Below, one piece after another: positions 21,731 to 37,724 of a stretch of DNA of 37,724 nucleotides. The stretch is from a virus, in the IMG/VR virus record IMGVR_UViG_3300006805_000070, positions 1 to 37,724 of that record; one strand, written 5' to 3'. The position numbers and the translations under genes were made by a program. Under the pieces are notes generated by a model. It did no database searches. It was not told the origin of the DNA and worked only from the letters and a program-made list of their open reading frames with translations. Numbering within the stretch: position 1 is the first letter of the stretch; each line of letters starts with the position of its first letter.

Positions 21731-22041
21731 TGTTTGATTGGTGGAAGAAGGAGGAGACGGTGAAGCCAGCGATTGAGGTCCGTTTGCCGGAACCTAATCC
21801 AGAGCACGAGAGGATCACACGGGCTGCTGAACTCCTGACAAAACGTAAGAGGCTTAAGGACTATATCTCAGATGCCAAGGATGATGATACCTATTGCGTT
21901 ACAGTTAGAAACGACGAGATGTTTCCCCATGCGTCAGTCCCCGTAATCCGCCTTACGACGAATGCCTATGTTAAGTTCCTTAATATATGTCTCAAGGATA
22001 TTGAGACAGAGCTGACAGACCTCGGAGTCCCCCTCTCTTGA
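21730..22041 (+). CDS. Hypothetical protein upstream of the replication gene
   Basis: 103 residues from ATG at 21730, with GGAGG seven bases upstream. Starts MFDWWKKEETVKPAIEVRLPE and ends with a leucine-rich helix (YVKFLNICLKDIETELTDLG). No family recognised. Its TGA overlaps the TTG start of the Prim-Pol/helicase gene. Confidence 0.65.
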   Translation: MFDWWKKEETVKPAIEVRLPEPNPEHERITRAAELLTKRKRLKDYISDAKDDDTYCVTVRNDEMFPHASVPVIRLTTNAYVKFLNICLKDIETELTDLGVPLS

Positions 22042-24503
22042 GTACCCCTTTTAAGAATTACGCTCCTTCCTATTGGGCCGTTGGTCTTCCCGTCATTCCG
22101 CTCACACGCCCGATGGAGGGTGACAAGAATCTAGGTAAGCGCCCGATCCATAATTCGTGGTCCCGCTGGTGTGTCGAGATGCCGGATCGAGAGACCCAGC
22201 AGGATTGGTTGTACGACAAGCGCGCGTACAACATTGGTCTTCCTTGCGGTCCTCAGTCCAACATCGTCATTGTCGACATCGACACGATGGACCCGCATCT
22301 GCAGCAGATCATCGAAGGCTGCCTGCCTCGCTCACCCTGGCAGAGGATTGGGCGGAAGGGTGCCGTCTATGCCTTCCGCTATCAGGGGGAGAAGACCTTC
22401 CAGATCAAGGGAGAGGGCGGTCAGGTCATCGTGGAGCTCCTGAGCCAGGGTCGACAGGTTGTCCTGCCCCCTTCGGTGCATCCCGAGACAGGCATGCCCT
22501 ACACGTCTGATAGGCTCCTCTACGAGTGCCTGGGTGAGCTGACCAACCTGCCCCCCAACATCGAGGACATCTTCCGTACTGCTCTTATTGAGCAGGGTGG
22601 GCTTCGTCTGTCCAACTCAGGCTTCTCCTCCATCATTGAGTTTGTCCCTAAGGGTACCAGGGACAATCGGATGATTCAGGAGGCTGGGCTCTATGCCGTA
22701 GGGATCCAGAGGGGGCACTTCACGTTGAAGGAAGCCCTTGGGTTTATGGACCATTGGTGTGCGGAGTATTGTGAGGAGAACAAGACCGATCCGATTGACC
22801 CTGAGAAGGGAAAGCTGCGGATCGTCCAGTTCCTTACCCGTGATGTCAATGATAAGACCAAGCGCCCGCTGAAGCCCGGTTGGGATGCGGGTCTGACTGA
22901 GCAGGACAAGTTCGAGCTCGGTTTGAACTTCACTGAGACTGATGAGGATTGGACCTTCGACCGCTTGCAGAAGTGGTTGTATCATAACTTCACGGTCAAT
23001 GCGGAGAACGACCCTGCAAGGATGGAGGCAATCTCGCAATCGCTGGAGTTCATGGCTCGCTCGGAGTCCATGACACAGGTCGAGCGAGAGGCCCTTATGG
23101 GCTGGATCGCCGCCAATAGTCGTATCCGGGTTACCGCTGCCGTCCTGCGTCGCATGTATATGAGCATGACCGAAGGGGCGGACTTCAAGGGGAACAACCA
23201 CTCCGAGGTTGCCCGATCGGTGCGGGAGTATATGGAGCTCGGAATGAATGCCCCGCTGCAGTGGCACGGTGGCCAGTTCTACCATTGGGAGGGCTCTCAC
23301 TGGGAGATCTATGAGGAGTGGCGACTGAAGAAGCTGATCGCCCAGGAGTTCGGTCATTTCGAGTCCTCGGTACGGAATTCCGATCACCGGGGCATTCTCC
23401 AGGTTCTGCAGACGATCTGCAACGAGGGCAGCCTTCGGAGTGACAGCGAAGCCGGGATCAACTTTGCCAACGGATATCTCACCGATCAGATGGTGCTGAA
23501 ACCCCACAAGAAGGAGTATGGCTGCACCTACCGCCTGACATACCCATACCGTCCCGAGTTGGCCGATGAGGCCAACTGCCCCATGTTCATGGGCTTCCTT
23601 CGGGATATCTGGGGTGATGATACCGACTTCGAGCAGAAGAAGCAGGCTCTGAGGGAGGCTATCGCCATCACGCTGTTCGGTCAGGGTCCGAAGTATAGTA
23701 GGGCGATCGTGCTCTATAACGCCGCTCATGGTGGGAAATCCACCATGTTGGATATCATTGCAGGTCTGATGCCGGAGGGTTGCTCGTCACACATTCCACC
23801 AAGCGATTGGAATGATAAGTTCAAGCCGGCGAATATGGTGGGTAAACTACTGAATGTTGGTAACGATCTGAGTGAGACTGCCTATATTAACGGTGAGATG
23901 TTCAAGATCATCGTGGAGGGTGGCGTTATTCAAGGTCAGCATAAGGGAACACCTATCTTCGAGTTCCGTCCGATTGCCACACATTGGTTCGCTACCAATC
24001 ACCTGCCGCAGTCGAAGGATAGCTCGGGTGGGTTCTTGAGGCGGTGGCTCATCTTCAAGTTCGACAAGAAGATCCCGCCAGAGAAGAAGATCCTTCACTT
24101 TGCTACCAAGGTGTTGGCCGCAGAGAGGGAGGCCATCGCAGCCTGGGCTATCCCGGCTATCAAAACGATCTCTGAGCGTAACGATTTCGACTGTCCACAC
24201 TCGCATTTCGATCTGATTGGCGAGATTGCCAATAGGTCCAACTCGGTGCGGCATTTCATTACGTGCAGCGAGAAGATCAAGATCAACAAGGGGATCCACG
24301 AGGTGGGCAAGCCGATGAAGGCTGTCTCTTCTGGTGACCTCTACAAGGAGTACATGACGTTTTGCTTGATGACCGCGCATAAGACCCCGATTAATTTGAA
24401 GATGTTCGATTTCAAGTTGAGGGAGCTCGCTCCCGAGATCGGGTTCAAGGTTCTGATTAACGAGACTGGTGTGGAATATGAGGGATTGAGGATTGTGGCA
24501 TGA
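22038..24503 (+). CDS. Replication protein: primase-polymerase (Prim-Pol) fused to SF3 (D5-like) helicase
   Basis: 821 residues from a TTG start. TTG is preferred because the Prim-Pol N-terminus (YAPSYWAVGLPVIPL) begins ahead of the first internal ATG, and TTGA couples it to the upstream stop. The Prim-Pol catalytic pair is in NIVIVDID (D80, D82), then VIVEL and PPSVHPETG (S146, H148). After a helical linker the helicase has Walker A NAAHGGKST (about residue 564), Walker B-like KLLNVGNDLSE, the sensor HWFATNHLPQSKD and the arginine finger FLRRWLIF, with a D5-like helical C-terminus. It can unwind and prime DNA in one polypeptide. The gene for a replicative polymerase is not in the window. Confidence 0.92.
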   Translation: MSTPFKNYAPSYWAVGLPVIPLTRPMEGDKNLGKRPIHNSWSRWCVEMPDRETQQDWLYDKRAYNIGLPCGPQSNIVIVDIDTMDPHLQQIIEGCLPRSPWQRIGRKGAVYAFRYQGEKTFQIKGEGGQVIVELLSQGRQVVLPPSVHPETGMPYTSDRLLYECLGELTNLPPNIEDIFRTALIEQGGLRLSNSGFSSIIEFVPKGTRDNRMIQEAGLYAVGIQRGHFTLKEALGFMDHWCAEYCEENKTDPIDPEKGKLRIVQFLTRDVNDKTKRPLKPGWDAGLTEQDKFELGLNFTETDEDWTFDRLQKWLYHNFTVNAENDPARMEAISQSLEFMARSESMTQVEREALMGWIAANSRIRVTAAVLRRMYMSMTEGADFKGNNHSEVARSVREYMELGMNAPLQWHGGQFYHWEGSHWEIYEEWRLKKLIAQEFGHFESSVRNSDHRGILQVLQTICNEGSLRSDSEAGINFANGYLTDQMVLKPHKKEYGCTYRLTYPYRPELADEANCPMFMGFLRDIWGDDTDFEQKKQALREAIAITLFGQGPKYSRAIVLYNAAHGGKSTMLDIIAGLMPEGCSSHIPPSDWNDKFKPANMVGKLLNVGNDLSETAYINGEMFKIIVEGGVIQGQHKGTPIFEFRPIATHWFATNHLPQSKDSSGGFLRRWLIFKFDKKIPPEKKILHFATKVLAAEREAIAAWAIPAIKTISERNDFDCPHSHFDLIGEIANRSNSVRHFITCSEKIKINKGIHEVGKPMKAVSSGDLYKEYMTFCLMTAHKTPINLKMFDFKLRELAPEIGFKVLINETGVEYEGLRIVA

Positions 24504-24802
24504 CTATCTGTAATTGCGTTGGACCTAGCCCAGGACATGCTCTTTGTCCGTGTATGGAAGCTCTGCACTCACACGGAAGGACGACCATACATAAGTCGTC
24601 CGTATACCCAAACTTGGAAGCCTGCCTCCGACATGGAGAGTATCATAAGAGTATAAGCGAGACTCATCGTAAGGAAATCACCAATCTGAACAAAGCCATT
24701 TTGCGGAAGAACCACAGCATCAAAAGTCTGAAGGCAAGGGTAAGAGAGTTGGAGTCACGATTGAAACAATATGAGTCACTAGGTGACGATTGGACATTCT
24801 GA
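24500..24802 (+). CDS. Small cysteine/histidine-rich protein with C-terminal coiled coil
   Basis: 100 residues, ATGA-coupled to the helicase gene. The start MTICNCVGPSPGHALCPCMEALHSHG has four cysteines and nearby histidines (possible metal site). Residues 55-95 are a basic then charged coiled coil (LNKAILRKNHSIKSLKARVRELESRLKQYE). No family recognised; a helicase or primase partner is possible from position. Confidence 0.6.
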   Translation: MTICNCVGPSPGHALCPCMEALHSHGRTTIHKSSVYPNLEACLRHGEYHKSISETHRKEITNLNKAILRKNHSIKSLKARVRELESRLKQYESLGDDWTF

Positions 24803-25074
24803 TGCTCGATGAACCCGAAATAGATAGTGAATACGTTGAGGTGATGTCCCAGATTGACGGGGAGCTCGTCCAAATTTGGGCTTACCTAGAGAGGAAGTAT
24901 GAGGTCCCATCGGAGTTCCTGGTGACCGCGTTTCTGGACCATGCGTTCGATCAGGCTATTCTCGATTGTGGGAGCGGCCTTGGTGCCGTAGTAGGCTTCC
25001 AGCACGCGGTGGGCGAGCTCGCTGAGGATAGCATGGCTCGTGAAATGAGAATCTTTAGACATAAGGTGAATTGA
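24802..25074 (+). CDS. Acidic hypothetical protein
   Basis: 90 residues from ATG at 24802, which overlaps the previous stop (TGATG). Helical and acidic, with YVEVMSQIDGELVQIWAYLERKY then FLVTAFLDHAFDQAILDCGSG. No recognised family. Confidence 0.6.
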   Translation: MLDEPEIDSEYVEVMSQIDGELVQIWAYLERKYEVPSEFLVTAFLDHAFDQAILDCGSGLGAVVGFQHAVGELAEDSMAREMRIFRHKVN

Positions 25075-25075
25075 G

Positions 25076-25240
25076 ATGGAAAATGACCGTCTTGTTGAAG
25101 TTGAGCGCCGTCTCGCCGTGTTGGAGGGGATGCTGAAGGTGAAGAAGTTGAAGGAGTGTAAGGTATGTGGCTTCGATATGAACAGGCCCTGGGCTTGCGA
25201 GACCAAAGGCTGCCCCAAGATGGTGGTGTTGGGATCATGA
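25076..25240 (+). CDS. 54-residue zinc-finger-like protein
   Basis: ATG at 25076 follows the previous stop by one base, and the stop overlaps the next ATG (ATGA). A charged helix (VEVERRLAVLEGMLKVKKLK) leads into ECKVCGFDMNRPWACETKGCP, giving C-x2-C ... C-x4-C, a small zinc-ribbon-like fold. Coupling on both sides and the cysteine pattern support it as a real gene. Confidence 0.7.
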   Translation: MENDRLVEVERRLAVLEGMLKVKKLKECKVCGFDMNRPWACETKGCPKMVVLGS

Positions 25241-25617
25241 GGGACTATAACAAGGAGGCAGAGGCTGTTTGCAAGTTGCTTGGTGGGTATAAGTGGGATA
25301 TTGAAGTGAGGCTATCGAACCCACTTCAGTATTTAGTTAGGATACACTTCAAATTCTGTTCGCCGAATGATTATGATATGCAATCTGGTATGTGGAGAGC
25401 TTTGGTAGAGGATACAGAGAATAGGGTGAAGGGGACCAAGATGACCGATGAAGAGTTGGACAAGATGCTGGAAGACCTCTTCGAAAATGAAGAGTACCTT
25501 AGTCGACTAGCTGATCAGCTTGCAGACCTGGAGGATAGTAAAATTCACATTCTCACTAAGATTGATCACGTGACGGGTCTTATTAGACAGACACGCGATC
25601 GTCTTCGGAGTGCTTAG
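25237..25617 (+). CDS. Hypothetical protein with acidic coiled coil
   Basis: 126 residues from ATG at 25237, chosen because it overlaps the upstream stop (ATGA); the longer frame from 25165 would run antiparallel in frame through the zinc-finger gene. The first half is mixed (YKWDIEVRLSNPLQYLVRIHFKF), the second half acidic and coiled (DEELDKMLEDLFENEEYLSRLADQLADLEDSK). Last gene before the strong terminator, so it ends the replication operon. Confidence 0.65.
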   Translation: MRDYNKEAEAVCKLLGGYKWDIEVRLSNPLQYLVRIHFKFCSPNDYDMQSGMWRALVEDTENRVKGTKMTDEELDKMLEDLFENEEYLSRLADQLADLEDSKIHILTKIDHVTGLIRQTRDRLRSA

Positions 25618-25650
25618 AACCCACGAGAAGAGGAGTGGAAGTGAGTATGG

Positions 25651-25670
25651 AAGGCCCCGCAAGGGGCCTT
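25651..25670 (+). terminator. Strong rho-independent terminator ending the replication operon
   Basis: Perfect 8-bp stem AAGGCCCC / GGGGCCTT with a GCAA tetraloop, followed by TTCTTT. It ends the plus-strand operon and can also act in the other direction because an A-run precedes it. Confidence 0.92.
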
Positions 25671-25773
25671 TTCTTTGACATCGGTTTACATTATTTGCTT
25701 GATATTACAGATATAGTGTTTACTTAACATAGTATCCTACCAAGGTCAACCTTTATTTCGATGGACTGATACT

Positions 25774-26664
25774 ATGATTGAACTAGACCCCAATATTAAG
25801 TATGGACGACTGACTATCATTGAACGAGTAGATAAGACCCACTACAAATTTCGATGTGACTGTGGCTCGGAAGTTGTCAAACTCACTAACTCAGTAAAAA
25901 CTGGTAACACGAGAAGCTGCGGGTGTCTGATGAAAGACTCCTGTCGTGTGGACCTATCAGGACGTGTTTACGGTAGCTTTACTGTACTGGCTCATGTTAC
26001 AGGTAGAAAATGGTCTTGCCGGTGTAAGTGCGGGGAAGTGTTGATCATTGATAAGAGAAGGCTATTTAAAGGCTGGAGCCTCAGTTGCGGCTGCGGCAGA
26101 GAGGAACTGATTGGAAAGGATGCCTTCTACAGAGGTAATGGTAAAAAGACGACACGGACTCGGGTAAACCACGATTGGCATGTAATTCGGGGCACTGAGA
26201 GGATAAAGATGAAGTCGTCTTACGAGGTCATATACGCACAATATCTAATACGTAATCACGTCTCGTTTTCGTATGAACCAAAAAGGTTTGTGTTAGTAGG
26301 AGGTGATTATGTACCAGATTTTTATCTTCCCGAGGAAGATCTATATGTCGAATGCAAAGGTGTGATGACCAAGGAAAGTGCATCACGGATTGAGCGATTT
26401 GAACGTCAGACAGGTAATAAGATCCACGTTATTGGTGAGGAGGAAATAGAGGGTTACTTGCCGCGTGGCATGTCTTACTTCAAATTTATGAAGGATTGGA
26501 AGAAGACTACGTCCTTATATACTAACGACAAGGTCTTAGATGATATGACTAAACTTCCTGTGTTTCAGAAGGTGAAATATAATCAACCTATTGATTTTGC
26601 TGACATAAGTGAGCTCGTGGCATTTATGCAACACTCAAATTTCCTAAATTTATCTGCGGTATAA
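25774..26664 (+). CDS. PD-(D/E)XK homing-type endonuclease with two N-terminal zinc modules
   Basis: 296 residues. Two repeats of a small cysteine module open the protein: YKFRCDCG ... RSCGCL (C28, C30, C49, C51) and WSCRCKCG ... LSCGCG (C82-C86, C105, C107), each preceded by a G-x-x-T/F-V/I segment; these are common DNA-binding heads of phage mobile endonucleases. The nuclease shows SYEVIYAQYL (E151), YVPDFYLPEEDLYVECKG (D182, E193, K195) and HVIGEEE, the PD-(D/E)XK core. It stands alone after a terminator and is flanked by non-coding DNA, as expected of an inserted homing gene. Base composition is more A/T-rich than in its neighbours. Confidence 0.85.
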   Translation: MIELDPNIKYGRLTIIERVDKTHYKFRCDCGSEVVKLTNSVKTGNTRSCGCLMKDSCRVDLSGRVYGSFTVLAHVTGRKWSCRCKCGEVLIIDKRRLFKGWSLSCGCGREELIGKDAFYRGNGKKTTRTRVNHDWHVIRGTERIKMKSSYEVIYAQYLIRNHVSFSYEPKRFVLVGGDYVPDFYLPEEDLYVECKGVMTKESASRIERFERQTGNKIHVIGEEEIEGYLPRGMSYFKFMKDWKKTTSLYTNDKVLDDMTKLPVFQKVKYNQPIDFADISELVAFMQHSNFLNLSAV

Positions 26665-26911
26665 AATCCTAATGATAGGGATGGTGTGGCATTCCTGCCA
26701 CTAGATTATCGTGGGTGGCTTCTACGTTTCTTAAAGTCAAGTTGTATCTTTATCACACTACATTGTCCAACACCTCGCTCTATCCCGGCCCTACACTCAC
26801 AACATCAAGAAGAGAGGAACACACCACTCGCACCACCTACCCCGCTACCTACCCCCGCACTCCCGACACTATAGCTGCGTCCTCATCCCTCCCACTTATC
26901 GGTAAGCAAAC
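26665..26911 (+). other. Gene-poor region upstream of the ribozyme mini-gene
   Basis: About 250 nt with no convincing gene. Two overlapping open frames here (26686-26874 and 26715-26915) lack Shine-Dalgarno sequences and have biased serine/threonine/proline composition from a pyrimidine-rich strand, so they are discounted. It may hold a promoter and leader for the accessory arm. Confidence 0.5.
26895..26907 (+). promoter_or_regulatory. Leader hairpin repeat, copy 1
   Basis: CTTA-TCGG-TAAG, a 4-bp stem with TCGG loop, five bases before the ATG at 26912. It belongs to the recurring hairpin family seen at 27875, 28121, 28375, 29755 and 33473. Confidence 0.5.
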
Positions 26912-26992
26912 ATGATCACATACGGGTTGCTGGCATGGTTCGCCATCATCATAGGCACATGCTACTTGTTCAAAGGTTCATCCGCTCCCTGA
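26912..26992 (+). CDS. 26-residue membrane mini-protein ending inside the hammerhead ribozyme
   Basis: ATG at 26912 follows a leader hairpin. The peptide starts MITYGLLAWFAIIIGTCYLF and ends KGSSAP: one hydrophobic membrane-spanning helix of about 18 residues with a short polar tail. The TGA stop (26990-26992) is part of the conserved CTGACGA core of the ribozyme. Too short for statistical certainty; the hairpin leader, the clean membrane segment and the exact stop placement support it. A holin-like or regulatory role is possible. Confidence 0.5.
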   Translation: MITYGLLAWFAIIIGTCYLFKGSSAP

Positions 26993-27043
26993 CGAGTCCA
27001 TAAGGACGAAACGCTGTGCCAGTCCACAGCGTCGGGGCGTACC
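26975..27043 (+). ncRNA. Type I hammerhead ribozyme
   Basis: All conserved parts are present. Core CTGACGA (26989-26995), stem II GTCC/GGAC with ATAA loop (26996-27007), GAAA (27008-27011), stem III of 7 bp CGCTGTG/CACAGCG with a 6-nt loop (27012-27031), then TC at 27032-27033. A27011 pairs with T27032. Stem I, CGCTCC (26983-26988) with GGGGCG (27034-27039), is open at its end, which makes it type I; outer GGT/ACC pairing (26975-26977 with 27041-27043 region) leaves an internal loop that could contact the stem II loop. Cleavage is predicted after C27033. Hammerheads are known in phages and all domains of life; the context here is unusual. Confidence 0.92.
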
Positions 27044-27061
27044 AATCACCACGCTCGCTAA

Positions 27062-27074
27062 CCCATAGGGTTTA
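27062..27074 (+). repeat. 13-nt repeat CCCATAGGGTTTA, copy 1
   Basis: Identical 13 bases occur at 30147-30159, both times directly before a start codon (27080 and 30159). The first copy is flanked so that AACCC-ATA-GGGTT can form a small hairpin. Possible translation or promoter element. Confidence 0.5.
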
Positions 27075-27079
27075 CTCCG

Positions 27080-27697
27080 ATGACCGTTGGTATCTTGAAC
27101 CACGTCGCACTAGAGAAACAGCTTATGGCTTATGCCACGCAACAGGGGAACGCCATGCTGGGCGTCGTCAGCAAGGCGACAGCGTACACACTGAGCGCCC
27201 CTACTCCCAAGGCTATCAGCATCCTGCGCAAGCGGATGGAAGAGAAAGGCTGTCCTAAGGGCACGATCGACGTCGCTTTCGCTATCGCCAAGCTGATTGC
27301 GCCTCGCATCGAGGATAGTGTGAAGGCTACCACCTCCCATGACGATGCCATGGTGGAGGTGAGCGAGCGGATCCTGGCCCTTAAGGGCGATCTTAGCTGG
27401 AAGGATCTCAAGGACACATTGAAGCCTGCGCCGCAAGGTGCCCCGGCCGTTGTGCCCGGTCCTGTGACTGAGGTTCCGGTGGTCGAAGGTGAGATGGGCG
27501 AGGTCGTGCCGCTGTCGTCTGTAGAACAGACACTCTTTGATCGGTGCATGCTGGCCCTGCCCAATTGGAGCGCCGAGCAGCGTGGGGCTATCTTCCAGGT
27601 GCTGTTGCAGATGTCTGATGTCGAGACGCTGGCGGCTATGGGCGAGGCTATCGTGGCCGAGACTGAGATCGCAGCGGCGGAGGCTCTTGCGGCTTAA
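27080..27697 (+). CDS. Hypothetical protein downstream of the hammerhead ribozyme
   Basis: 205 residues from ATG at 27080. The N-terminal half is helical and basic to neutral (ALEKQLMAYATQQGNAMLG, IDVAFAIAKLIAPRIED). A proline/valine linker (PAPQGAPAVVPGPVTEVP, about 117-140) joins an acidic alanine-rich C-terminal helix region. No family recognised. Its start is 47 nt after the predicted ribozyme cleavage point, so its mRNA would begin with a 5'-hydroxyl GGGGCG end if cleavage occurs. Shine-Dalgarno is weak (TAGGG at about ten bases). Confidence 0.75.
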   Translation: MTVGILNHVALEKQLMAYATQQGNAMLGVVSKATAYTLSAPTPKAISILRKRMEEKGCPKGTIDVAFAIAKLIAPRIEDSVKATTSHDDAMVEVSERILALKGDLSWKDLKDTLKPAPQGAPAVVPGPVTEVPVVEGEMGEVVPLSSVEQTLFDRCMLALPNWSAEQRGAIFQVLLQMSDVETLAAMGEAIVAETEIAAAEALAA

Positions 27698-27818
27698 TGA
27701 TTGAGGCTAGGTCCTAGGGCGGTTAAGCTGGGGCCTAGTTTCAATGGCAAGGCTTGGGGCCGGGCGTGACATAAAGATCACAGTTGACAGGCTGGAGAAT
27801 GGGTGTTCGTGCATCAAG

Positions 27819-27871
27819 ATGCGGATAGTCGCAGAAAGCTGCAAGAGATAGCTTTCTGCGACTATCCGCAT
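27819..27871. repeat. Perfect 22-bp inverted repeat with 9-nt loop
   Basis: Arm 1 (27819-27840, starts ATGCGGATAG) and arm 2 (27850-27871, ends CTATCCGCAT) are exact reverse complements; the loop is GCAAGAGAT. There is no T-run after either arm, so it is not a standard terminator. In RNA it would be a very stable hairpin three bases before leader hairpin copy 2. Confidence 0.9.
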
Positions 27872-27874
27872 AAA

Positions 27875-27890
27875 CGCTTATCGGTAAGCG
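27875..27890 (+). promoter_or_regulatory. Leader hairpin repeat, copy 2
   Basis: CGCTTA-TCGG-TAAGCG, a perfect 6-bp stem, eight bases before ATG 27899, followed by AGG as Shine-Dalgarno. Confidence 0.65.
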
Positions 27891-27898
27891 AGGACGCT

Positions 27899-28057
27899 AT
27901 GACCTTAGATGAGGCACGTAATATAATCAACAATGCTAACAGTCATACTTGCGAAGAAATTCGTCAAGCTTCTAAAATCATCTTAATGTCAAGCTCTAAG
28001 GTTTCAAAGAAAGAAGTTGGAAAAGCAACCCATCTTAGTAGCGTTGTAGGGTGGTGA
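27899..28057 (+). CDS. Small hypothetical protein
   Basis: 52 residues from ATG at 27899, chosen because it follows a leader hairpin with AGG, in the same arrangement as its neighbours. Helical and polar (TLDEARNIINNANSHTCEEIRQASKIIL), with a serine/lysine-rich end. Possibly a small DNA- or protein-binding helix pair. No family recognised. Confidence 0.6.
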   Translation: MTLDEARNIINNANSHTCEEIRQASKIILMSSSKVSKKEVGKATHLSSVVGW

Positions 28058-28073
28058 ATAGCTCACTCTCTGA

Positions 28074-28096
28074 GTGCCCTACACATGCTAGGGCAC
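28074..28096 (+). terminator. Hairpin after the 52-residue gene
   Basis: Perfect 8-bp stem GTGCCCTA / TAGGGCAC with a 7-nt loop, 16 nt after the stop. No U-run follows, so it could be a processing or stability element instead of a terminator. Confidence 0.4.
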
Positions 28097-28120
28097 GATT
28101 GAGCGTGACTAGAGTTTAGG

Positions 28121-28136
28121 TGCTTACTGGTAAGTG
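28121..28136 (+). promoter_or_regulatory. Leader hairpin repeat, copy 3
   Basis: TGCTTA-CTGG-TAAGTG, with two G.U wobbles at the stem base, followed by AGGA and ATG at 28148. The flanking AGGTGCTTA ... GGTAAGTGAG is shared with copy 4. Confidence 0.6.
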
Positions 28137-28147
28137 AGGAACGGACA

Positions 28148-28303
28148 ATGGATAGTTTGCAAACTGCTGAAGAAATCATCAAAGAGTTAATGATGGTGCT
28201 TAAAGCGTGCATTAACGATGGATTTCTAGCTGGTGATGTACTGGAGCAAGCCTGTGAAGCTGTGGATAACGCAGACTACTTTCTTAATCATGAGGTAGAG
28301 TGA
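28148..28303 (+). CDS. Small acidic hypothetical protein
   Basis: 51 residues from ATG at 28148 after a leader hairpin and AGGA. Acidic, helical: MDSLQTAEEIIKELMMVLKA near the start and LEQACEAVDNADYFLNHEVE at the end. No family recognised. Confidence 0.65.
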   Translation: MDSLQTAEEIIKELMMVLKACINDGFLAGDVLEQACEAVDNADYFLNHEVE

Positions 28304-28374
28304 CACAGGCTTAGTATCCGCGACCCTCAGAAATCCAGACGATCCTGACAGATGAACCATGCCTAGTTTCCAGG

Positions 28375-28391
28375 TGCTTATCGGGTAAGTG
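28375..28391 (+). promoter_or_regulatory. Leader hairpin repeat, copy 4
   Basis: TGCTTA-TCGGG-TAAGTG directly before AG-ATG at 28394. Stem has two G.U wobbles and four Watson-Crick pairs; the 3' arm itself supplies the Shine-Dalgarno-like GTGAG. Confidence 0.65.
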
Positions 28392-28393
28392 AG

Positions 28394-29011
28394 ATGATGA
28401 ACATTAAGAAGCTGATTGGAATCGCTGAGGCTTGGCATGGCGGGCAAGATAGCGGTCTCTATTCACTGCTCAGCACGGGTAAGCTCTGGGACAAGGAACA
28501 CGTATCCAGATGCTGGTCGGAGTTGCATCAGGCAAGGCTTACCGTTCAGAAGAAACCATCGGATTACGACGTTGGTGAGGCTGACGAGCTGAACGATGCC
28601 TTGAATTATCTCGCTGACCAGGAGGAGAATTTTCCATATCAGGTAGCAGATGAATTCATGGAAGCATACGTTGCCTGCGCCCTATGGAGCACAAACGATA
28701 ACAGCGATCCAGAGACAGGCGGGGATCCTCTCGATGATAACTATGGTCCCGAGGACATAGCACCTGAGACTCTGGCCAAAATGGGACAGGACTGCGCTAG
28801 CTTCAGGGAAGATAATGAAGATCTTATCCTTGAACATGGAACGATGTCACAAGCTGGCCATGATTTCTGGCTCACGAGGAACGGCCACGGTGCTGGGTTC
28901 TGGGATGGTGATTGGCCGGATGATGTAGGTGAGACACTAACCAAGGCGTCAAAAGCCTTTGGAGAGTTCGATCTCTACGTCGGTGACGACGGTAAGATTT
29001 ATGGGAGCTAA
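28394..29011 (+). CDS. Conserved phage hypothetical protein (AGHDFWLTRNGHGAGFWD family)
   Basis: 205 residues. The C-terminal part, from about residue 85, carries a pattern I recognise from many unrelated phages: EAYVACALWSTND, a predicted helix with CASF, AGHDFWLTRNGHGAGFWD and FDLYVGDDGKIYG. Its function is unknown. The N-terminal 70 residues (IGIAEAWHGGQDSGLYSLLS ... WSELHQARLTV) look like a separate helical module, so this may be a fusion. Preceded by leader hairpin copy 4. Confidence 0.8.
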   Translation: MMNIKKLIGIAEAWHGGQDSGLYSLLSTGKLWDKEHVSRCWSELHQARLTVQKKPSDYDVGEADELNDALNYLADQEENFPYQVADEFMEAYVACALWSTNDNSDPETGGDPLDDNYGPEDIAPETLAKMGQDCASFREDNEDLILEHGTMSQAGHDFWLTRNGHGAGFWDGDWPDDVGETLTKASKAFGEFDLYVGDDGKIYGS

Positions 29012-29076
29012 TGCCATGCCCATAGCTGACCTAACCACCCTTGGTGCGTGTGATATCGAGTTTATGGGAGATTGAG

Positions 29077-29460
29077 ATGAAATACGAATCTGAACTATCC
29101 AACTACGTTGAATCCCTCAATCTCACACCTGAGATCAAAACACTCATCCGTCAGGCCAATTTCGACATTTACAGTGGTCCACTCTTTCTCGACAAGGATG
29201 GAGAAGCCTGCTCCTTGTTCAACGAGGGCGCCACTCAGTTCGATTTCAGTGCTGCATGTGACAAGATTTCGGCTGCATTGGGCGACGTGTCGGATTTATG
29301 GATCGATACGTTCGCTGGAGGTTGGCAGGAAAGTGAGCCCGAACCGTTCCACGAGGGAGATGAGTTTTTCAATGTGAACTGGGAGGACTGGTATCACATG
29401 GATCGCAGCGAGGTTCTGGCCTACATTGTGGGCAAGGAGTTGGTGAGTTACGTGTCATGA
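29077..29460 (+). CDS. Acidic hypothetical protein
   Basis: 127 residues from ATG at 29077 with GGGAG six bases upstream; the longer frame from 29041 starts with TTG and is less likely. Contains LTPEIKTLIRQANFDIYSG, DLWIDTFAGGWQESEPEP and FFNVNWEDWYHMDRSEVLAYIVGKEL. No family recognised. A possible 19-codon frame (29016-29075) precedes it. ATGA overlap with the next gene. Confidence 0.65.
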   Translation: MKYESELSNYVESLNLTPEIKTLIRQANFDIYSGPLFLDKDGEACSLFNEGATQFDFSAACDKISAALGDVSDLWIDTFAGGWQESEPEPFHEGDEFFNVNWEDWYHMDRSEVLAYIVGKELVSYVS

Positions 29461-29753
29461 TCACCCTCGCAATGTGGGAGATCCAGCGTCGCCACTCTGA
29501 CTGCTGGTTTGAGCCGAAATCGAACAGTTTCTTCAAGACGCGCTTGTGTCAGGATGGATATGCCAAGCGCGAGGGCTCAGATGCATTCTTCGTGAGCTCA
29601 GAGAAACTGTCTGGGCATCGAAGGGCCTACAGCGTCCGTAGGCTGAATTGGGAGACGGGCGCCATATCAACCGTCGGTGCTGGATTCCAAGGGTATGATA
29701 ACATCAGGGCTGCCAAGAAAGCGGCTCAGGGGCTAGCTGCGTCTGATGCGTAA
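29457..29753 (+). CDS. Small hypothetical protein, basic
   Basis: 98 residues, coupled by ATGA. Starts MITLAMWEIQRRHSDCWFEP and ends in RRAYSVRRLNWETGAISTVG then YDNIRAAKKAAQGLAASDA. A beta-hairpin plus basic helix; may bind nucleic acid. No family recognised. Confidence 0.65.
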   Translation: MITLAMWEIQRRHSDCWFEPKSNSFFKTRLCQDGYAKREGSDAFFVSSEKLSGHRRAYSVRRLNWETGAISTVGAGFQGYDNIRAAKKAAQGLAASDA

Positions 29754-29754
29754 C

Positions 29755-29771
29755 CACTTATTGGGTAAGTG
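29755..29771 (+). promoter_or_regulatory. Leader hairpin repeat, copy 5
   Basis: CACTTA-TTGGG-TAAGTG, a perfect 6-bp stem two bases before ATG 29774. The middle base pair is A-U where copy 2 has G-C, a compensatory change. Confidence 0.65.
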
Positions 29772-29773
29772 AA

Positions 29774-30085
29774 ATGACCACCTTCCGCGATTGGTTCAAA
29801 GCCAATCTATCCGAGTATGCGTCCGATATCGTGAACCACGGGGCAGCCGGCGGTTTCCCCTACATCACCTACACTAACGACACGGTTGAACTCTTCGATA
29901 AGTTCGGGGAAGAAATCTGGGAGATGGCCGTTCAAGATGCAGAGGACATGGGCTGCAAGAACGTGGCTGAGATGATCAGTGGGTTTGGTCGGGCCGACAT
30001 GCTGGGAGATTGGAACACATTCAAGAATCTCATGGTATGGTACGCATGTGAAACTGTAGCTAGAGAATTTGTGGAGGATGAGTAA
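29774..30085 (+). CDS. Conserved phage hypothetical protein
   Basis: 103 residues. FRDWFKANLSEYASDIVNHGAAGGFPYITYTNDTVELFDKF then EEIWEMAVQDAEDMG and a C-terminal helix (NTFKNLMVWYACETVAREF) resemble a phage-borne family of unknown function in which the histidine-glycine segment and the EIW helix are kept. Preceded directly by leader hairpin copy 5. Last in its group before a 73-nt gap with a 12-bp palindrome (TAGCCTAGGCTA, 30108-30119). Confidence 0.75.
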   Translation: MTTFRDWFKANLSEYASDIVNHGAAGGFPYITYTNDTVELFDKFGEEIWEMAVQDAEDMGCKNVAEMISGFGRADMLGDWNTFKNLMVWYACETVAREFVEDE

Positions 30086-30146
30086 TCGTCACACAACTGT
30101 CACAGTGTAGCCTAGGCTAAAATCCAAAAGCTTCCCCCGCGCGCAC

Positions 30147-30159
30147 CCCATAGGGTTTA
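30147..30159 (+). repeat. 13-nt repeat CCCATAGGGTTTA, copy 2
   Basis: Identical to 27062-27074; here its last base is the A of the ATG at 30159. Position suggests a shared expression signal. Confidence 0.5.
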
Positions 30160-30323
30160 TGATCATGATCTACCTAATCCCAATCGCATTCCACCATCTC
30201 GCTCGTGAGCTCAAAGCCAAGTTTCGAGCTCGACTGGCCTACGAGGAGGCTCGCGCTTCTGGGGCACTGGATGGGGAGGCTCAGTTGATGGCGACAGAGG
30301 CTTATGAGAGGGAGTTGAATTGA
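30159..30323 (+). CDS. 54-residue basic helical protein
   Basis: ATG at 30159 follows TAGGG. The N-terminus is hydrophobic (MIMIYLIPIAFHHLA), then charged (RELKAKFRARLAYEEARASG). The stop overlaps the next ATG (TGATG), which supports it as a gene. Could be a short membrane anchor with cytoplasmic helix. Confidence 0.6.
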   Translation: MIMIYLIPIAFHHLARELKAKFRARLAYEEARASGALDGEAQLMATEAYERELN

Positions 30324-30559
30324 TGACATTAACTGTTTCTAAGGCTATAGAGTTCCTTGAACAGCATGGATACTCAGTTCGGTCACATTCCGAAGGGGAT
30401 AGTATATGGTGTGTACCTCCTAATGACCCCGAAGGTTATGTCGTCACGGACAGGGTTGAAGGTCTTGAATTGGGGGACGAGGTCTTTATCAAACACGAAC
30501 GTTACGTTGTTGAGGACGTACACATAAGCAAGATGCTCGTGAAGAAGTCCCCGAGATAA
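30323..30559 (+). CDS. Small hypothetical protein
   Basis: 78 residues from ATG at 30323 (TGATG overlap). MTLTVSKAIEFLEQHGYSVR followed by beta-rich DPEGYVVTDRVEGLELGDEVFIKHERYVVEDVHISKML. The start resembles the MTVAELI-type helix found three more times downstream. No family recognised. Confidence 0.6.
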   Translation: MTLTVSKAIEFLEQHGYSVRSHSEGDSIWCVPPNDPEGYVVTDRVEGLELGDEVFIKHERYVVEDVHISKMLVKKSPR

Positions 30560-30589
30560 TTCCCTTAAGCTTACAAAGGAGTTGAGTTG

Positions 30590-30913
30590 ATGCCAGGACA
30601 TACACCAGGGTTGTGGGTTGCCCCCATTCCATCGGGCCTAGTCCGAGGCCCAAGCAAAGTCCATCCCGGCACAGAAAGCTCCGTAGCTCAAGCTCAAGCT
30701 CATGGTAACGGTAGCCAGGAGTTAGCAGCCAATACCAAGCTCATCACTGCTGCACCCGATATGCTCAAAGACCTGAAACAAGCTAAGCAGAATATCGAAC
30801 AACTCTGTGATACGACGAACTGTCTCTCAAAGAAACTTGGTCTCGGTCGCAAGGTTCGATTTGAGGACTTCGCTGACAAGGTTCTAGCTGCTATTGCCAA
30901 GGTAGAAGACTGA
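30590..30913 (+). CDS. Hypothetical phage protein with NTKLITAAPDML motif
   Basis: 107 residues from ATG at 30590, with AAAGGAG upstream; TTG at 30587 is possible. The motif ELAANTKLITAAPDMLKDLKQAK matches a pattern common in small phage proteins of unknown function (ANxxLIxAAPELLxxL), which end in a helix. The first 45 residues are proline/serine-rich. Confidence 0.7.
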   Translation: MPGHTPGLWVAPIPSGLVRGPSKVHPGTESSVAQAQAHGNGSQELAANTKLITAAPDMLKDLKQAKQNIEQLCDTTNCLSKKLGLGRKVRFEDFADKVLAAIAKVED

Positions 30914-30914
30914 C

Positions 30915-31067
30915 ATGACCGTAGCTGAACTAATCGCTGAGCTTCAGAAACTCGACCTTCAGACCGAGGTGGTAGTAGACACGCTTGGTGAAGCGGAACC
31001 TTGTTTTGTTGAACCAAAGATGCAGTTGGTTCCCACCTTAACCAAGCTCGTGCTTCAAATTTACTAG
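30915..31067 (+). CDS. MTVAELI-family protein, copy 1
   Basis: 50 residues; starts MTVAELIAELQKLDLQTEVV and then beta-strand VVDTLGEAEPC. The helix-strand start is nearly identical to that of the next gene (MTVAELITELSKLDPN), indicating duplication. Proteins with this helix (xxELIxxLxxLPxxxxV) are common and functionally unknown in phages. Lies one base after the previous stop. Confidence 0.7.
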   Translation: MTVAELIAELQKLDLQTEVVVDTLGEAEPCFVEPKMQLVPTLTKLVLQIY

Positions 31068-31078
31068 GAAAAGATGAC

Positions 31079-31276
31079 ATGACTGTAGCTGAACTGATTA
31101 CCGAACTCTCGAAGTTGGACCCAAACCTGAAGACCTTCACGTTTGGGTCCTATCAATGGCATGAGACTGAGGAACTGAAGGTGGTTAAATTTCGAAAATC
31201 TGAAATAAGTGGCTACAACGTGGTATCACCTATGCAGAAGCCGGAAGACACCGATATTGAAGGTGTAATGATTTGA
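31079..31276 (+). CDS. MTVAELI-family protein, copy 2
   Basis: 65 residues, MTVAELITELSKLDPNLKTF then beta-rich TFGSYQWHETEELKVVKF. Shares its first 14 residues, apart from three changes, with copy 1. TTGA overlap with the next gene. Confidence 0.7.
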   Translation: MTVAELITELSKLDPNLKTFTFGSYQWHETEELKVVKFRKSEISGYNVVSPMQKPEDTDIEGVMI

Positions 31277-31614
31277 ACCCCAACCTCCACGACCTCCCCC
31301 TCGCCGACGCTCTCGCCTCATACCATGGTTGGGATGACCATACCCGGACAGCATATCTCACGTCGACTCCTAGGCATGATGTGCTCGCGGATCACTACTT
31401 CCACAAGCGTACAAGGAAGCCACCGATGCCCTTGGTCAAACCACGATCAATCCACGTCAACCGCCTTCACTGGGACCCGGTTCCAGGCTTCTCGGACGTC
31501 TATGCCGTAGGTGTGGGGGTTGAGGTGCTGTTCAGGTTTCGATGCCACGATGTGACGTTGGCACGGGTGGTTGCGGCTTGTGACCAGTATGGTTTGGAGG
31601 TGAGGTACGTGTGA
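31273..31614 (+). CDS. Hypothetical protein with TTG start
   Basis: 113 residues. TTG at 31273 overlaps the preceding TGA (TTGA), the same arrangement as the helicase gene, and no early ATG exists. Histidine-rich in the first half (ASYHGWDDHTRTAYL, TPRHDVLADHYFHKRT), then beta-rich (FSDVYAVGVGVEVLFRFRC). No family recognised. Confidence 0.6.
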   Translation: MNPNLHDLPLADALASYHGWDDHTRTAYLTSTPRHDVLADHYFHKRTRKPPMPLVKPRSIHVNRLHWDPVPGFSDVYAVGVGVEVLFRFRCHDVTLARVVAACDQYGLEVRYV

Positions 31615-31682
31615 TGACGATTGAACAACTGATCAAGCTTCTAGGCTACGTGCCGGATGAGTTCAGGGAGATCGAGGAATGA
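31614..31682 (+). CDS. MTVAELI-family protein, copy 3 (22-residue remnant)
   Basis: ATG at 31614 overlaps the previous stop (TGATG) and the TGA overlaps the next ATG (ATGA). MTIEQLIKLLGYVPDEFREI is the family helix without the following strands. It is either a truncated duplicate or a coupling leader. Confidence 0.5.
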   Translation: MTIEQLIKLLGYVPDEFREIEE

Positions 31683-31870
31683 CCATCTCCGACCTAATCA
31701 ACAGGCTCAAGCACCTCCCTCCGAGTATGCTGGTCTATGTTCCGGATAAAAAGGACGGATTGGCGGTCCTGAGCCGTGTTGAGGTGCAGGCCCTGGTTGG
31801 TGACAAGGACCGCGTTTCTAGGGCCTGGGACACGTTTCGATATGACATTCAAGCCGTGGTGGTGGGGTAG
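31679..31870 (+). CDS. MTVAELI-family protein, copy 4
   Basis: 63 residues: MTISDLINRLKHLPPSMLVY, then PDKKDGLAVLSRVEVQALVG and YDIQAVVVG. The helix, LPP turn and strand are the family pattern. ATGA overlap with copy 3. Convergent with the HNH gene that ends five bases away. Confidence 0.7.
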   Translation: MTISDLINRLKHLPPSMLVYVPDKKDGLAVLSRVEVQALVGDKDRVSRAWDTFRYDIQAVVVG

Positions 31871-31875
31871 ATGCT

Positions 31876-32544
31876 CTAATCTTCGTCATAATCGGGAGCG
31901 GAGGGAAGTATCGTTCGAACAAATCTACTCTCTGCTTCTGAGTACGACCACTCATCAGGATCGAAGTGATTATATTTTGCTCGGTTTTTATTAGCAGGAA
32001 CTAAATCAAGGTTACACGGAACGTGAAGTCCGCATACAAGGTCATGAGCTAATGGAATGCCGTGGTCGAGCTGCTGATCCTCAGTCTTTGAAAGGTGAAG
32101 CCTAATAATATCGTCAACATTAACCCATTTTGGTGTCGCAAGAGCTATACGATATGTTCGAATAATTGTTGCAGTAAGTAGTCTCTCTGCATTGCTATCA
32201 CGCCACTCTTTGTTCTTATCACGAACTCTAGCTTTGTTATTTTGTCGCCACTCTTTCTGTTTCTTCTTACAATTAAGTAGTCTCTGTTCACCCGTTGTGG
32301 GGGTGTTGTTTGAATCCTTAGTTTTCTGCTTCGTCCGATATTCTTTAGCGTAATCAGGGTTCAGGTCTCTGAATTTCTTGCCCGCTTCCTGAAAGTAACC
32401 GTTCTCTTTCTTATGACTGTGGCAACTGAGGCAGATGCCCCCAACTACCCGACGAAGTGACAAGTGGCCGTGTTTGCACGGTTTCCCGGTGTAGTAATGG
32501 GCCAAACCCAATCTTATCGCTTCGCTGCGCGTCGTAATGTCCAT
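31876..32544 (-). CDS. HNH endonuclease, second free-standing copy
   Basis: 222 residues on the opposite strand to its neighbours. The head YYTGKPCKHGHLSL ... GGICLSCHSHKK (C23, H27, C38, C41) matches that of the 9890 gene (FYTGVPCKNGHDCERY ... STCVQC). The nuclease has QLDHGIPLAHDLVCGLHVPCNLDLVPANKNRAKYNHFD, the DH...GLHV...NL...N.....F core. Its first histidine region reads DHGIPL where the other has DHIIPL. It borders the repeat-rich region to the right. Orientation, lack of coupling and A/T-rich composition indicate transfer. Confidence 0.85.
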   Translation of the reverse strand: MDITTRSEAIRLGLAHYYTGKPCKHGHLSLRRVVGGICLSCHSHKKENGYFQEAGKKFRDLNPDYAKEYRTKQKTKDSNNTPTTGEQRLLNCKKKQKEWRQNNKARVRDKNKEWRDSNAERLLTATIIRTYRIALATPKWVNVDDIIRLHLSKTEDQQLDHGIPLAHDLVCGLHVPCNLDLVPANKNRAKYNHFDPDEWSYSEAESRFVRTILPSAPDYDED

Positions 32545-32662
32545 GGAGAGTTCTCTAATAATACGTGTTGTATAAACCTAATATAGTAATAATCTTTCTA
32601 CAAACAAGGTTCTTTATTACAAAATACGGTCTCTGGGGCCGCAAGGGTTGACTGGGACGTAA

Positions 32663-32999
32663 AAAAGCCCCAAAAAAGAACCCCCATTCAATACTCTAAG
32701 AATTTTAATCCTTATTAGATAATGAATAACTTATCTTTCTTCTTTCTTCTTTCTTCTTTCTTCTTTCTTCTTTCTTCTTTCTTCCTCCCCTCCTTTAGAT
32801 CCGCTTAGAGAAAAAAGAATACTTATACTTAATACTTACCTATCCCAACGGTAAAATCCAAAACGGCAAACCTACCTCGCGCCCCTCCAAAAAGGCCCCA
32901 AAAAAGTACCCCAACCGGAACCCCCCTGTAAATCATTCATTATCCAATAACAATCAAAATCCTTAGTATATTGAATGACCCTTCTTTTTTGGGGCTTTT
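32663..32999. repeat. Element bounded by 67-nt imperfect inverted repeats
   Basis: The ends read AAAAGCCCCAAAAAAGAA inward on each strand, identical over 18 bases, and similarity continues for 67 nt (55 of 67 matches) through CATTCAATA and GATAATGAAT blocks. The enclosed 203 nt include the TTTCTTC tract. No transposase frame lies inside. Confidence 0.75.
32736..32784. repeat. Seven tandem TTTCTTC repeats in a 63-nt pyrimidine tract
   Basis: Seven exact copies of the 7-mer; the all-pyrimidine run extends from 32734 to 32796. Such tracts can form triplex DNA and change copy number by slippage. Confidence 0.95.
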
Positions 33000-33069
33000 C
33001 TCCCCAATCTCATTTGTTATCCAATAACGATCTCTCGACACCCCCCATCCTCCCTGCCATCTAACTCGC

Positions 33070-33522
33070 ATGGCAAACACCCCCTCTTCCATCCTCCGAT
33101 ATGTAACCACCACCCCGGACCAACACTGGCTCTGGCACGGTCCCCTATCCTGTCCTGCCCCCCGCTCCGGTAAATCCGGTAGATACCATATCACCTACAA
33201 ACCACGGCCCACCATCCGGCTCGGCAATCAGAAGACCACCCCCCAACGGGTCTTCTTCACCGAGCTCTACGGCATACCACCTCCCAAGCGCCTCCAGAGG
33301 CTCAAGGAGGTGTGTGACCTGGATCTGTGTGTGAACCCCCATCACTTCCATCCCCCCCTTCCTACGGCCTTCCTAGACCCCCTGACGCACGACCACATAG
33401 AACTCATGGCGATGCTCTCCTTGGATGAACCGTTCAACAAGGAACGGTTCCGAGGATTCGAGGAAGAGCTACTGCTTATCGGTAAGCACCACCCGCACAT
33501 TGCAGAATGGATGAACCAATGA
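33070..33522 (+). CDS. Degenerate HNH-like zinc protein
   Basis: 150 residues. WLWHGPLSCPAPRSG, then TPQRVFFTELYGIPPPKRLQRLKEVCDLDLCVNPHHFHP resemble the fold of phage HNH-type zinc proteins in which C-x4-C-V-N-P-x-H-L closes the metal site. The first catalytic histidine is not evident, so activity is doubtful. Leader hairpin copy 6 lies inside the end of this gene, before the next start. Confidence 0.6.
   Translation: MANTPSSILRYVTTTPDQHWLWHGPLSCPAPRSGKSGRYHITYKPRPTIRLGNQKTTPQRVFFTELYGIPPPKRLQRLKEVCDLDLCVNPHHFHPPLPTAFLDPLTHDHIELMAMLSLDEPFNKERFRGFEEELLLIGKHHPHIAEWMNQ
33473..33488 (+). promoter_or_regulatory. Leader hairpin repeat, copy 6 (inside a gene)
   Basis: GCTTA-TCGG-TAAGC with a further T-A pair at the base, identical in core to copy 2. 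It is inside the end of the upstream coding sequence, 30 nt before the next ATG (33519). Confidence 0.5.
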
Positions 33523-33839
33523 CTCTCCAAGACTACTTCACCAAAGCCTACCATGGTCTGGCCTCTCAAGGCTTCGTGAAATCCTCTGAGGGCGGTCGTT
33601 GTCTCTACCGAGGACCAAACGGTCTCAAGTGTGCCATCGGTCACTGTATCCCTGATGATGAATATCGTTCCTCTTTCGAAGGTGGCTCTGCCAGTCACGT
33701 TTTGAACATCGATAATGCCTTCGGTTGGAAGCTTAACCGTCTTCAAATATGCCATGACGACGCACAGTCGTCAGAGGACATGAAGTCTCGCCTACTAGCC
33801 TTCGCCAAACACTATGGCCTGGAGGTCCCTCAGTCATGA
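33519..33839 (+). CDS. GLKCAIGHC-family protein, tandem copy 1
   Basis: 106 residues from ATG at 33519 (ATGA overlap; an in-frame ATG at 33507 would add four residues). FTKAYHGLASQGFVKS, then CLYRGPNGLKCAIGHCIPDDEY and QICHDDAQSSEDMKSRLLAFAKHYGLEVP. The next gene is a clear duplicate. Proteins with the C-x-YR-x-x-NGLKCAxGxxIxDxxY block occur widely in phages and bacteria; role unknown. The paired cysteines suggest a metal or disulfide site. Confidence 0.75.
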   Translation: MTLQDYFTKAYHGLASQGFVKSSEGGRCLYRGPNGLKCAIGHCIPDDEYRSSFEGGSASHVLNIDNAFGWKLNRLQICHDDAQSSEDMKSRLLAFAKHYGLEVPQS

Positions 33840-34198
33840 ACCGCCAAGAAATCTTCACCAAAGCCTACCTTGGCCTCGCCTCTCAAGGCTTTATCCGTGC
33901 CGTCGACGAAGACGAGCAGGTCTGTGCATATCGAACCGAGAATGGCCTCAAGTGTGCCATCGGCCACTGCATCTCAGATGAGCTCTACTCATCTGATCTT
34001 GAGGGCGAGACCCCCTGCCCCTCTTATGAGAAGCAGTTCCGCCACGCGCTGGGTCTGACTACACAACTAACGGGCGAAGACCTCTTCTTTCTCTCATCTC
34101 TTCAGGATTGCCACGACTCCGTAGACAATCCTGAAGAGATGAAGTTGAACTTGGAAGAGTTCGCTCGTGGTCATAGCTTGGAGGTTCCCCATGTCTGA
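33836..34198 (+). CDS. GLKCAIGHC-family protein, tandem copy 2
   Basis: 120 residues, ATGA-coupled. FTKAYLGLASQGFIRA, CAYRTENGLKCAIGHCISDELY and LQDCHDSVDNPEEMKLNLEEFARGHSLEVP align with copy 1 along the whole length, with an acidic insertion (DEDEQV) and a longer middle. Overlaps the next gene by eight bases. Confidence 0.75.
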   Translation: MNRQEIFTKAYLGLASQGFIRAVDEDEQVCAYRTENGLKCAIGHCISDELYSSDLEGETPCPSYEKQFRHALGLTTQLTGEDLFFLSSLQDCHDSVDNPEEMKLNLEEFARGHSLEVPHV

Positions 34199-34592
34199 AT
34201 TCAAGTACAATGCAGAGGCCGCTCGATGTGTATCAGATTCACTTAACTACGGCTTCGGATGGGATAAAACGAAGCATAAGCGAGCTTTCTGGAAGAATGT
34301 GAGAAACGCCTTCAATCACTTGGCAGAGGACGACGTTCTGGAGTTCGAGGAGAGTATCGCCACCGCAGTGTCTCTCGCCGGCACGTCCGCCTTCCCTGAT
34401 TATGGTTTGGGCTTCCACATGCCCATTTACATTCGAACTCTTTATAGATCTATCGACGAGGTATTCGCTTGGAGTGACACCATGCACCCCCAATTCTGGA
34501 TGAATCTACATGAAGCATTTGTTTCTCTGGAAGACAACGATATCGAATCCTTCAATCACCGCGTAGATCGTGCAGTGGAGTCCTACAAATGA
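34191..34592 (+). CDS. Protein with two xFWxxxxxAF repeats
   Basis: 133 residues from ATG at 34191, with GGAGG six bases upstream, preferred over the longer frame. Two copies of a roughly 29-residue helical repeat: AFWKNVRNAFNHLAEDDVLEFEESIATAV and, near the C-terminus, QFWMNLHEAFVSLEDNDIESFNHRVDRAV. The same unit occurs once in the gene at 36746. No family recognised; repeats of this type often serve as binding scaffolds. Confidence 0.7.
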   Translation: MSEFKYNAEAARCVSDSLNYGFGWDKTKHKRAFWKNVRNAFNHLAEDDVLEFEESIATAVSLAGTSAFPDYGLGFHMPIYIRTLYRSIDEVFAWSDTMHPQFWMNLHEAFVSLEDNDIESFNHRVDRAVESYK

Positions 34593-36762: not shown

Positions 36763-37027
36763 ACTTCTCACTCGCGCCAAGGCCCTCATCGAGGAACTTG
36801 CAGCGGCCATCCCGGCCACGCCTGAGGTTACGGGGTTCTCGAAAGAGGACACTAAACTTCGTGCAGAGGGGATCGCCAATAATCTGATTACGTTTGCCAA
36901 TTGGGAACGCACACCTCAAGGAAAGGACTTCTGGAATAAGTTCGATGATGCTTTCAGGGCTCTCTCCAGGGGCGACGAAGCCGAGTTCAACAGACTGGTA
37001 GCGGAAGCTGTGAGAGTACATCCATGA
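36746..37027 (+). CDS. Small protein with one xFWxxxxxAF repeat
   Basis: 93 residues from ATG at 36746, overlapping the peptidase end by 17 nt. Starts MTNTAELLTRAKALIEELAA and later GKDFWNKFDDAFRALSRGDEAEFNRLVAEAV, one copy of the repeat found twice in the 34191 gene. The shared unit links two genes 2.2 kb apart. Confidence 0.68.
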   Translation: MTNTAELLTRAKALIEELAAAIPATPEVTGFSKEDTKLRAEGIANNLITFANWERTPQGKDFWNKFDDAFRALSRGDEAEFNRLVAEAVRVHP

Positions 37028-37649: not shown

Positions 37650-37698
37650 GGTTGGTGGGGTGAAGACCCTCTACACCTCATCCTTCACCCACCGAACC
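37650..37698 (+). terminator. Imperfect hairpin after the last gene
   Basis: GGTTGGTGGGGTGAAG (37650-37665) pairs with CTTCACCCACCGAACC (37683-37698), with one bulge and one mismatch and a 17-nt loop. No T-run follows, so termination is uncertain; it could protect the transcript end. Confidence 0.4.
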
Positions 37699-37724
37699 AT
37701 CACCTTCATGATCCATCGACACGA

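Follow-up and report, generated by a model that had tools for sequence, protein, structure and literature searches.

What might a self-cutting RNA do between two genes of a phage? Since 2011 the question has stood of what role hammerhead ribozymes play in the genomes of phages and bacteria, and a review describes the role of the prokaryotic hammerheads as open and ties many of them to phages (PMC6155905). Perreault et al. 2011 (PMC3088659) described prophage hammerheads that flank genes, saw three clusters cleave in vitro and a single one in E. coli, and proposed that long phage transcripts are processed in this way to mRNAs of one gene or one operon. The window considered here, that is, the whole stretch of DNA analysed, spans the 37,724 bases of an IMG/VR virus record. 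The portal, terminase and tape-measure genes lie on its minus strand, and the plus strand carries a primase gene (22038–24503), an HNH endonuclease-like gene (25774–26664) and a series of small genes. In our judgement it is quite probable that a competent type I hammerhead between co-directional genes of this arm cleaves itself and splits a polycistronic phage mRNA.

Read directly, positions 26983–27039 of the plus strand form a complete type I hammerhead with all core bases present: CGCTCC CTGACGA GTCC ATAA GGAC GAA ACGCTGTG CCAGTC CACAGCGT C GGGGCG. The features of the locus, with the evidence for each in brackets, are as follows.

26912–26992, plus strand: mini-gene of 26 aa, presumably expressed, with one predicted hydrophobic segment, MITYGLLAWFAIIIGTCYLFKGSSAP (translation)
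26983–27039, plus strand: type I hammerhead ribozyme (direct reading, motif finder, Rfam, R1 covariance model, MFE fold)
26983–26988, plus strand: 5' strand of stem I, CGCTCC, partner of 27034–27039 (motif finder, R1 model)
26989–26995, plus strand: conserved core CUGACGA, C3 to A9 (direct reading, R1 model)
26996–27007, plus strand: stem II with loop AUAA, in which A27003 is the predicted tertiary-contact base (direct reading, R1, covariation)
27008–27010, plus strand: conserved core GAA, G12 to A14 (direct reading, R1 model)
27011–27032, plus strand: stem III hairpin, A15.1 to U16.1 (motif finder, MFE fold)
27033–27034, plus strand: predicted cleavage site, C17 (27033) / G1.1 (27034) (position by homology to the hammerhead family)
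27034–27039, plus strand: 3' strand of stem I, GGGGCG, which would be the 5'-OH end of the downstream mRNA (motif finder, R1)
27034–27079, plus strand: leader of 46 nt that would be left on the downstream mRNA after the predicted cleavage (direct reading)
27040, plus strand: U1.7, the seventh base past the cut and predicted partner of A27003 (covariation in viral hammerheads; PMC2553840 and a passage of PMC9217987)
27080–27697, plus strand: gene for a 205-aa protein, function unassigned (ortholog in a related phage)

The core required of a hammerhead, CUGANGA...GAA(A)...UH with the A15.1–U16.1 pair and stem II closed by 10.1–11.1, is present throughout, H17 being C27033. Stem I has 6 bp, including one U-G pair. 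Stem II has 4 bp (GTCC 26996–26999 with GGAC 27004–27007, loop ATAA 27000–27003), and stem III pairs ACGCTGTG (27011–27018) with CACAGCGT (27025–27032) over the loop CCAGTC, giving 8 bp, that is, 7 and A15.1–U16.1. Since stems II and III are closed by loops in the fold and stem I is open, the hammerhead belongs to type I. The three stems around the core (6, 4 and 8 bp) constitute the minimum free energy structure of the isolated 57 nt, at −24.4 kcal/mol. The sequence-only reading had claimed a complete type I hammerhead between the mini-gene and the 205-aa gene, cut after 27033; direct reading, folding, the motif finder and R1 all bear out the ribozyme, its location is confirmed, and the site predicted by homology to the hammerhead family is the same.

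When the transcript is extended, alternative folds come within about 0–2 kcal/mol of the hammerhead, and the full hammerhead fold accounts for about 2–13% at equilibrium, a share calculated from secondary structure alone, leaving aside tertiary contacts and co-transcriptional folding. The long-context folding z-score of −0.88 is uninformative. A protective 5' hairpin GGGCGU/ACGCUC in the cut product was considered and rejected, as 37% of shuffles match it and the family shows no enrichment.

For comparison we surveyed viral type I hammerheads with two exact patterns, CTGANGAGTCC N5 or N4 GGACGAAAC, which fix stem II as GTCC/GGAC and which each returned at least 120 IMG/VR stretches; the sequences were left unweighted for relatedness, and ORF calls were mechanical. 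The fetched loci hold 244 non-redundant type I hammerheads among the matches listed, and stem I is exactly 6 bp long in 206. As the survey finder demands pairing, the stem I test was repeated blind to stem I. Among the matches listed, 146 of 231 non-redundant pattern matches have stem III, and all 146 form a stem I of at least 4 bp, which is exactly 6 bp, as in the window, in 116. Some pattern matches that lack the type I stem III (L092, L225, L226, L227 and others) look type III-like by eye and lie just before phage genes.

A covariance model, R1, was built from 58 viral hammerheads of the survey set with the window excluded. In it, 10 of 13 pairs have changed on both sides, a count inflated because the sequences were chosen by requiring pairing. 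In the window, R1 has the hammerhead as its sole match (44.5 bits, E 1.3e-12). A strict motif finder run on both strands likewise gives one match, and none in 200 dinucleotide shuffles. With Rfam Hammerhead_1 (RF00163), a 1-kb cmscan scores the element at 23.2 bits (E 0.0065), and a search of the whole record gives 30 bits (E 3.3e-7). Both values stay under the 34-bit gathering score; an Rfam scan at default gathering scores therefore passes over the element, and it reported nothing for the window. We count the Rfam and R1 scores together in favour of the ribozyme. The core can also be read as type III (RF00008, 20.8 bits); a separate type III finder found no match in the window, and the score is accordingly taken as shared-core resemblance.

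The sequence-only reading had also seen features of fast natural ribozymes, namely an internal loop in stem I facing loop II. One part of this has gained support. In the window the last base of loop II (A27003) and the first base past the 6-bp stem I (U27040) are complementary, and these two positions, which played no part in the searches, are Watson-Crick partners in 94% of 213 viral hammerheads among the matches listed (T-A 128, A-T 56, G-C 16, other 13). Within the NNAA loop class, to which the AUAA loop of the window belongs, base 1.7 is T in 37 of 38 cases among the matches listed, and U27040 fits. The association has a z-score of 87, which is unusable as a probability because the surveyed sequences are related to one another; the weight lies in the three alternative pair types. 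In the fast hammerheads of sTRSV and Schistosoma, an A of loop II forms a trans-Hoogsteen pair with a U from stem I, outside its helical part (PMC2553840), and this U is placed 7 nt past the cleavage site in a passage of PMC9217987 citing O'Rourke 2015. To judge from the letters, the contact predicted in the window is this same trans-Hoogsteen contact.

The closed internal loop is the weaker part of the claim. An outer 3-bp helix, GGT/ACC (26975–26977/27041–27043), is present around the internal loop of stem I in the window, and outer helices in the viral family occur at chance level, being no commoner than with re-paired flanks. A second association links the first base of loop II with the base 5' of stem I (T-A 149, G-T 26, A-T 12 and G-C 8 in the 213 hammerheads, among the matches listed) and suggests a second contact between loop II and stem I in viral hammerheads; the window, with A and C at these positions, does not share it.

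The position of the ribozyme relative to the genes is the second regular feature of the survey. The 244 viral type I hammerheads among the matches listed sit exactly between co-directional genes: the upstream gene has its stop codon within or next to stem I or the core, and the downstream ATG is typically 20–40 nt past the cut. Counted over 209 of them among the matches listed, an upstream ORF of 40 aa or more has its stop within −30 to +10 of the core in 79% (random 13%, antisense 20%), an ATG of an ORF of at least 40 aa lies 5–70 nt past the cut in 80% (random 35%, antisense 17%), and both hold in 66% versus 6% for random and 4% for antisense positions. The commonest stop positions among the matches listed abut C3 on its 5' side (35) or use the UGA of the core (25). 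Neighbouring hammerheads of one locus are on the same strand in 93 of 93 cases among the matches listed, with a median spacing of 611 nt, about one gene. There is no special downstream gene: PHROG matches of 70 downstream proteins, among the matches listed, are scattered, and with downstream genes this diverse the element shows no link to a particular gene family.

The window fits this placement and shares the 6-bp stem I, as well as the complementarity between the base just after that stem and the last base of loop II. The two genes are co-directional; the stop TGA of the mini-gene (26990–26992) coincides with U4-G5-A6 of the hammerhead core, and the ATG at 27080 lies 46 nt past the cut, the upstream gene having only 26 aa. 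The 205-aa gene is counted as real because it is conserved in a related record, L237, where the ortholog (L237:13291–13926) likewise stands behind the primase gene (37% identity, E 3e-27). No sigma-70-like consensus promoter was seen on the plus strand at 26500–26912, so that a single transcript across both genes is an assumption.

Hammerhead cleavage leaves a 2',3'-cyclic phosphate and a 5'-OH. Transcription would run through the ribozyme, and the transcript of this arm would fold and self-cleave at the 27033/27034 junction. Of the two products, the upstream one, with the mini-gene, would retain the ribozyme body as a structured, hairpin-rich 3' end carrying a 2',3'-cyclic phosphate; the downstream one, with the 205-aa gene, would begin with a 5'-OH and the 46-nt leader. 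The polycistronic mRNA would thus be divided into gene-sized units that can differ in how they decay and are translated; the two mRNAs would probably meet separate fates, and cleavage may affect mRNA stability or translation. This reading is based on the sequence, the fold, the covariation of the tertiary contact and the gene-boundary placement, from which we infer cleavage of the window ribozyme in vivo. That the mini-gene would be separated from the 205-aa gene, as had been suggested earlier, is supported by the gene-boundary placement of the 244 viral type I hammerheads among the matches listed. The points that we count against mRNA splitting are the Rfam score below the cut-off, the 2–13% share of the fold in long context, the negative promoter search at 26500–26912 and the related phages that have no ribozyme.

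The stop codon itself opens another reading, which we regard as doubtful. A ribosome ending the mini-gene would cover stem I and the core and block their folding, so that the RNA would be cut only when the mini-gene is untranslated and the cut would report its translation. The mini-gene stop at U4-G5-A6 agrees with this, as do the viral cases, most of which have a stop only a few bases from the core (35 abut C3 and 25 use the core UGA, among the matches listed). With the upstream stop built into stem I or the core, cleavage and the release of a 5'-OH mRNA would depend on upstream translation. However, the consensus CUGANGA carries UGA regardless, compact phage genomes place stops near any intergenic element, and a gene of 26 codons offers little ribosome cover. 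That phage hammerheads of this kind are in general translation-gated mRNA cutters, kept unfolded by the terminating ribosome, seems to us similarly questionable. It is unlikely that the ribozyme is a decayed or silent relic, a passenger from mobile DNA with no present effect: related phages do without it, and the HNH endonuclease-like gene (25774–26664) directly upstream indicates that the stretch has exchanged DNA, but the core bases, the stems and the variable tertiary-contact base are all intact, and decay would soon lose them.

In viroids and eukaryotic retrozymes, hammerheads are also known to yield RNAs of unit length that are ligated and spread, as passages of PMC4918200 and PMC7761336 describe, and a circular-RNA or retrozyme-like element would act in the same way here. 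We find this very improbable, since the window has a single copy, no direct repeats of the ribozyme flank it among the largest repeat families at 24000–37724, and the copies in other viral loci bracket different protein genes. A chance resemblance, to which the score under the Rfam gathering score might point, is scarcely credible given 0 matches in 200 shuffles and an E value of 1.3e-12 with R1; U27040 and the gene-boundary position agree independently.

The terminase of the window is 37–47% and its primase 30–41% identical to those of Caulobacter phage Seuss, Achromobacter phages JWF and 2-1, Xylophilus phage Lumi and Acinetobacter phage EAb13. As these genomes measure 81–85 kb, the window is probably about half a genome, and the long terminal repeats beyond the primase in Seuss and EAb13 suggest that the ribozyme is possibly located near one end of the genome. 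Single-sequence queries with the 205-aa protein, primase and portal in viral contigs and with the primase in genome contigs gave no relatives; these were found with a primase profile only. Rfam Hammerhead_1 has no match over the whole records of six named phages, and R1 gives no convincing copy on 47 related viral records, with five marginal matches at 15.7–21.8 bits, one of which, L317, lacks a hammerhead core in the portion inspected. L237, with its orthologous 205-aa gene, has no hammerhead either. The ribozyme is therefore particular to the lineage of the window, and covariation was tested across unrelated viral hammerheads, not at an orthologous locus.

Several other elements were seen in this arm. 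The short palindromic CTTATCGGTAAG and its variants occur at 26895, where the element precedes the mini-gene, and at 27877, 28123, 28377, 29757 and 33475, mostly 5–20 nt before the starts of small genes; it may be an operator, a promoter part or a leader hairpin, and elements resembling CTTAAG/CTTAACTTAAG stand in comparable places of L237. Just past the 205-aa gene, at 27819–27871, the arms of an inverted repeat pair perfectly over 22 bp around a 9-nt loop (ATGCGGATAGTCGCAGAAAGCT / AGCTTTCTGCGACTATCCGCAT). In an A-rich stretch, two 71-nt inverted repeat arms (32663–32733 / 32929–32999) are 82% complementary and 195 nt apart. Two adjacent genes at 33507–34198 share repeated stretches (84–85% over 41–56 nt) and represent a tandem gene duplication. 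The protein encoded at 25774–26664 matches HNH endonuclease families in its N-terminal part and a Holliday junction resolvase/endonuclease family in its C-terminal part, and in the related loci it has no more than weak partial matches; it is possibly a two-nuclease fusion, encoded between primase and ribozyme.

A single case adds little alone, and the survey yields two testable regularities: the ribozyme stands exactly where one gene stops and the next starts, the stop codon falling within or next to stem I or the core, and covariation links the final base of loop II to the seventh base past the cut. If these hold true, phages split polycistronic mRNAs by a self-cutting RNA instead of a nuclease site. 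We make no claim of priority; no description of the stop/start placement or of the three-way covariation in phage hammerheads was found in the open literature, a scope that excludes most subscription journals. The ribozyme type and its placement in phages are already known, and mRNA splitting was proposed in Perreault 2011. The impression that the element is very unusual finds no support, phage hammerheads between genes having been published since that year (PMC3088659).

Among known families, RAGATH-1 (RF03152) matches the same 55 nt weakly, at 20.3 bits and far under its cut-off of 56.3 bits, because the core is common to both. Like the fast natural hammerheads, the window has a loop II tetraloop, AUAA, that ends in A and a U at position 7 after the cut; unlike in them, the contact is derived from sequence and covariation only, and other viral hammerheads put U-A or G-C at those two positions. 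In contrast to the prophage clusters of Perreault 2011, the window fragment carries a single copy, and its phage belongs to a Seuss/JWF-like siphovirus lineage whose other members have no ribozyme. It further differs from the Perreault 2011/RF00163 hammerheads in scoring below the Rfam cut-off and in having the upstream stop inside the core. With the bacterial and prophage hammerheads of Perreault 2011 (RF00163) it shares the same core, the type I permutation, a phage genome and a position between genes.
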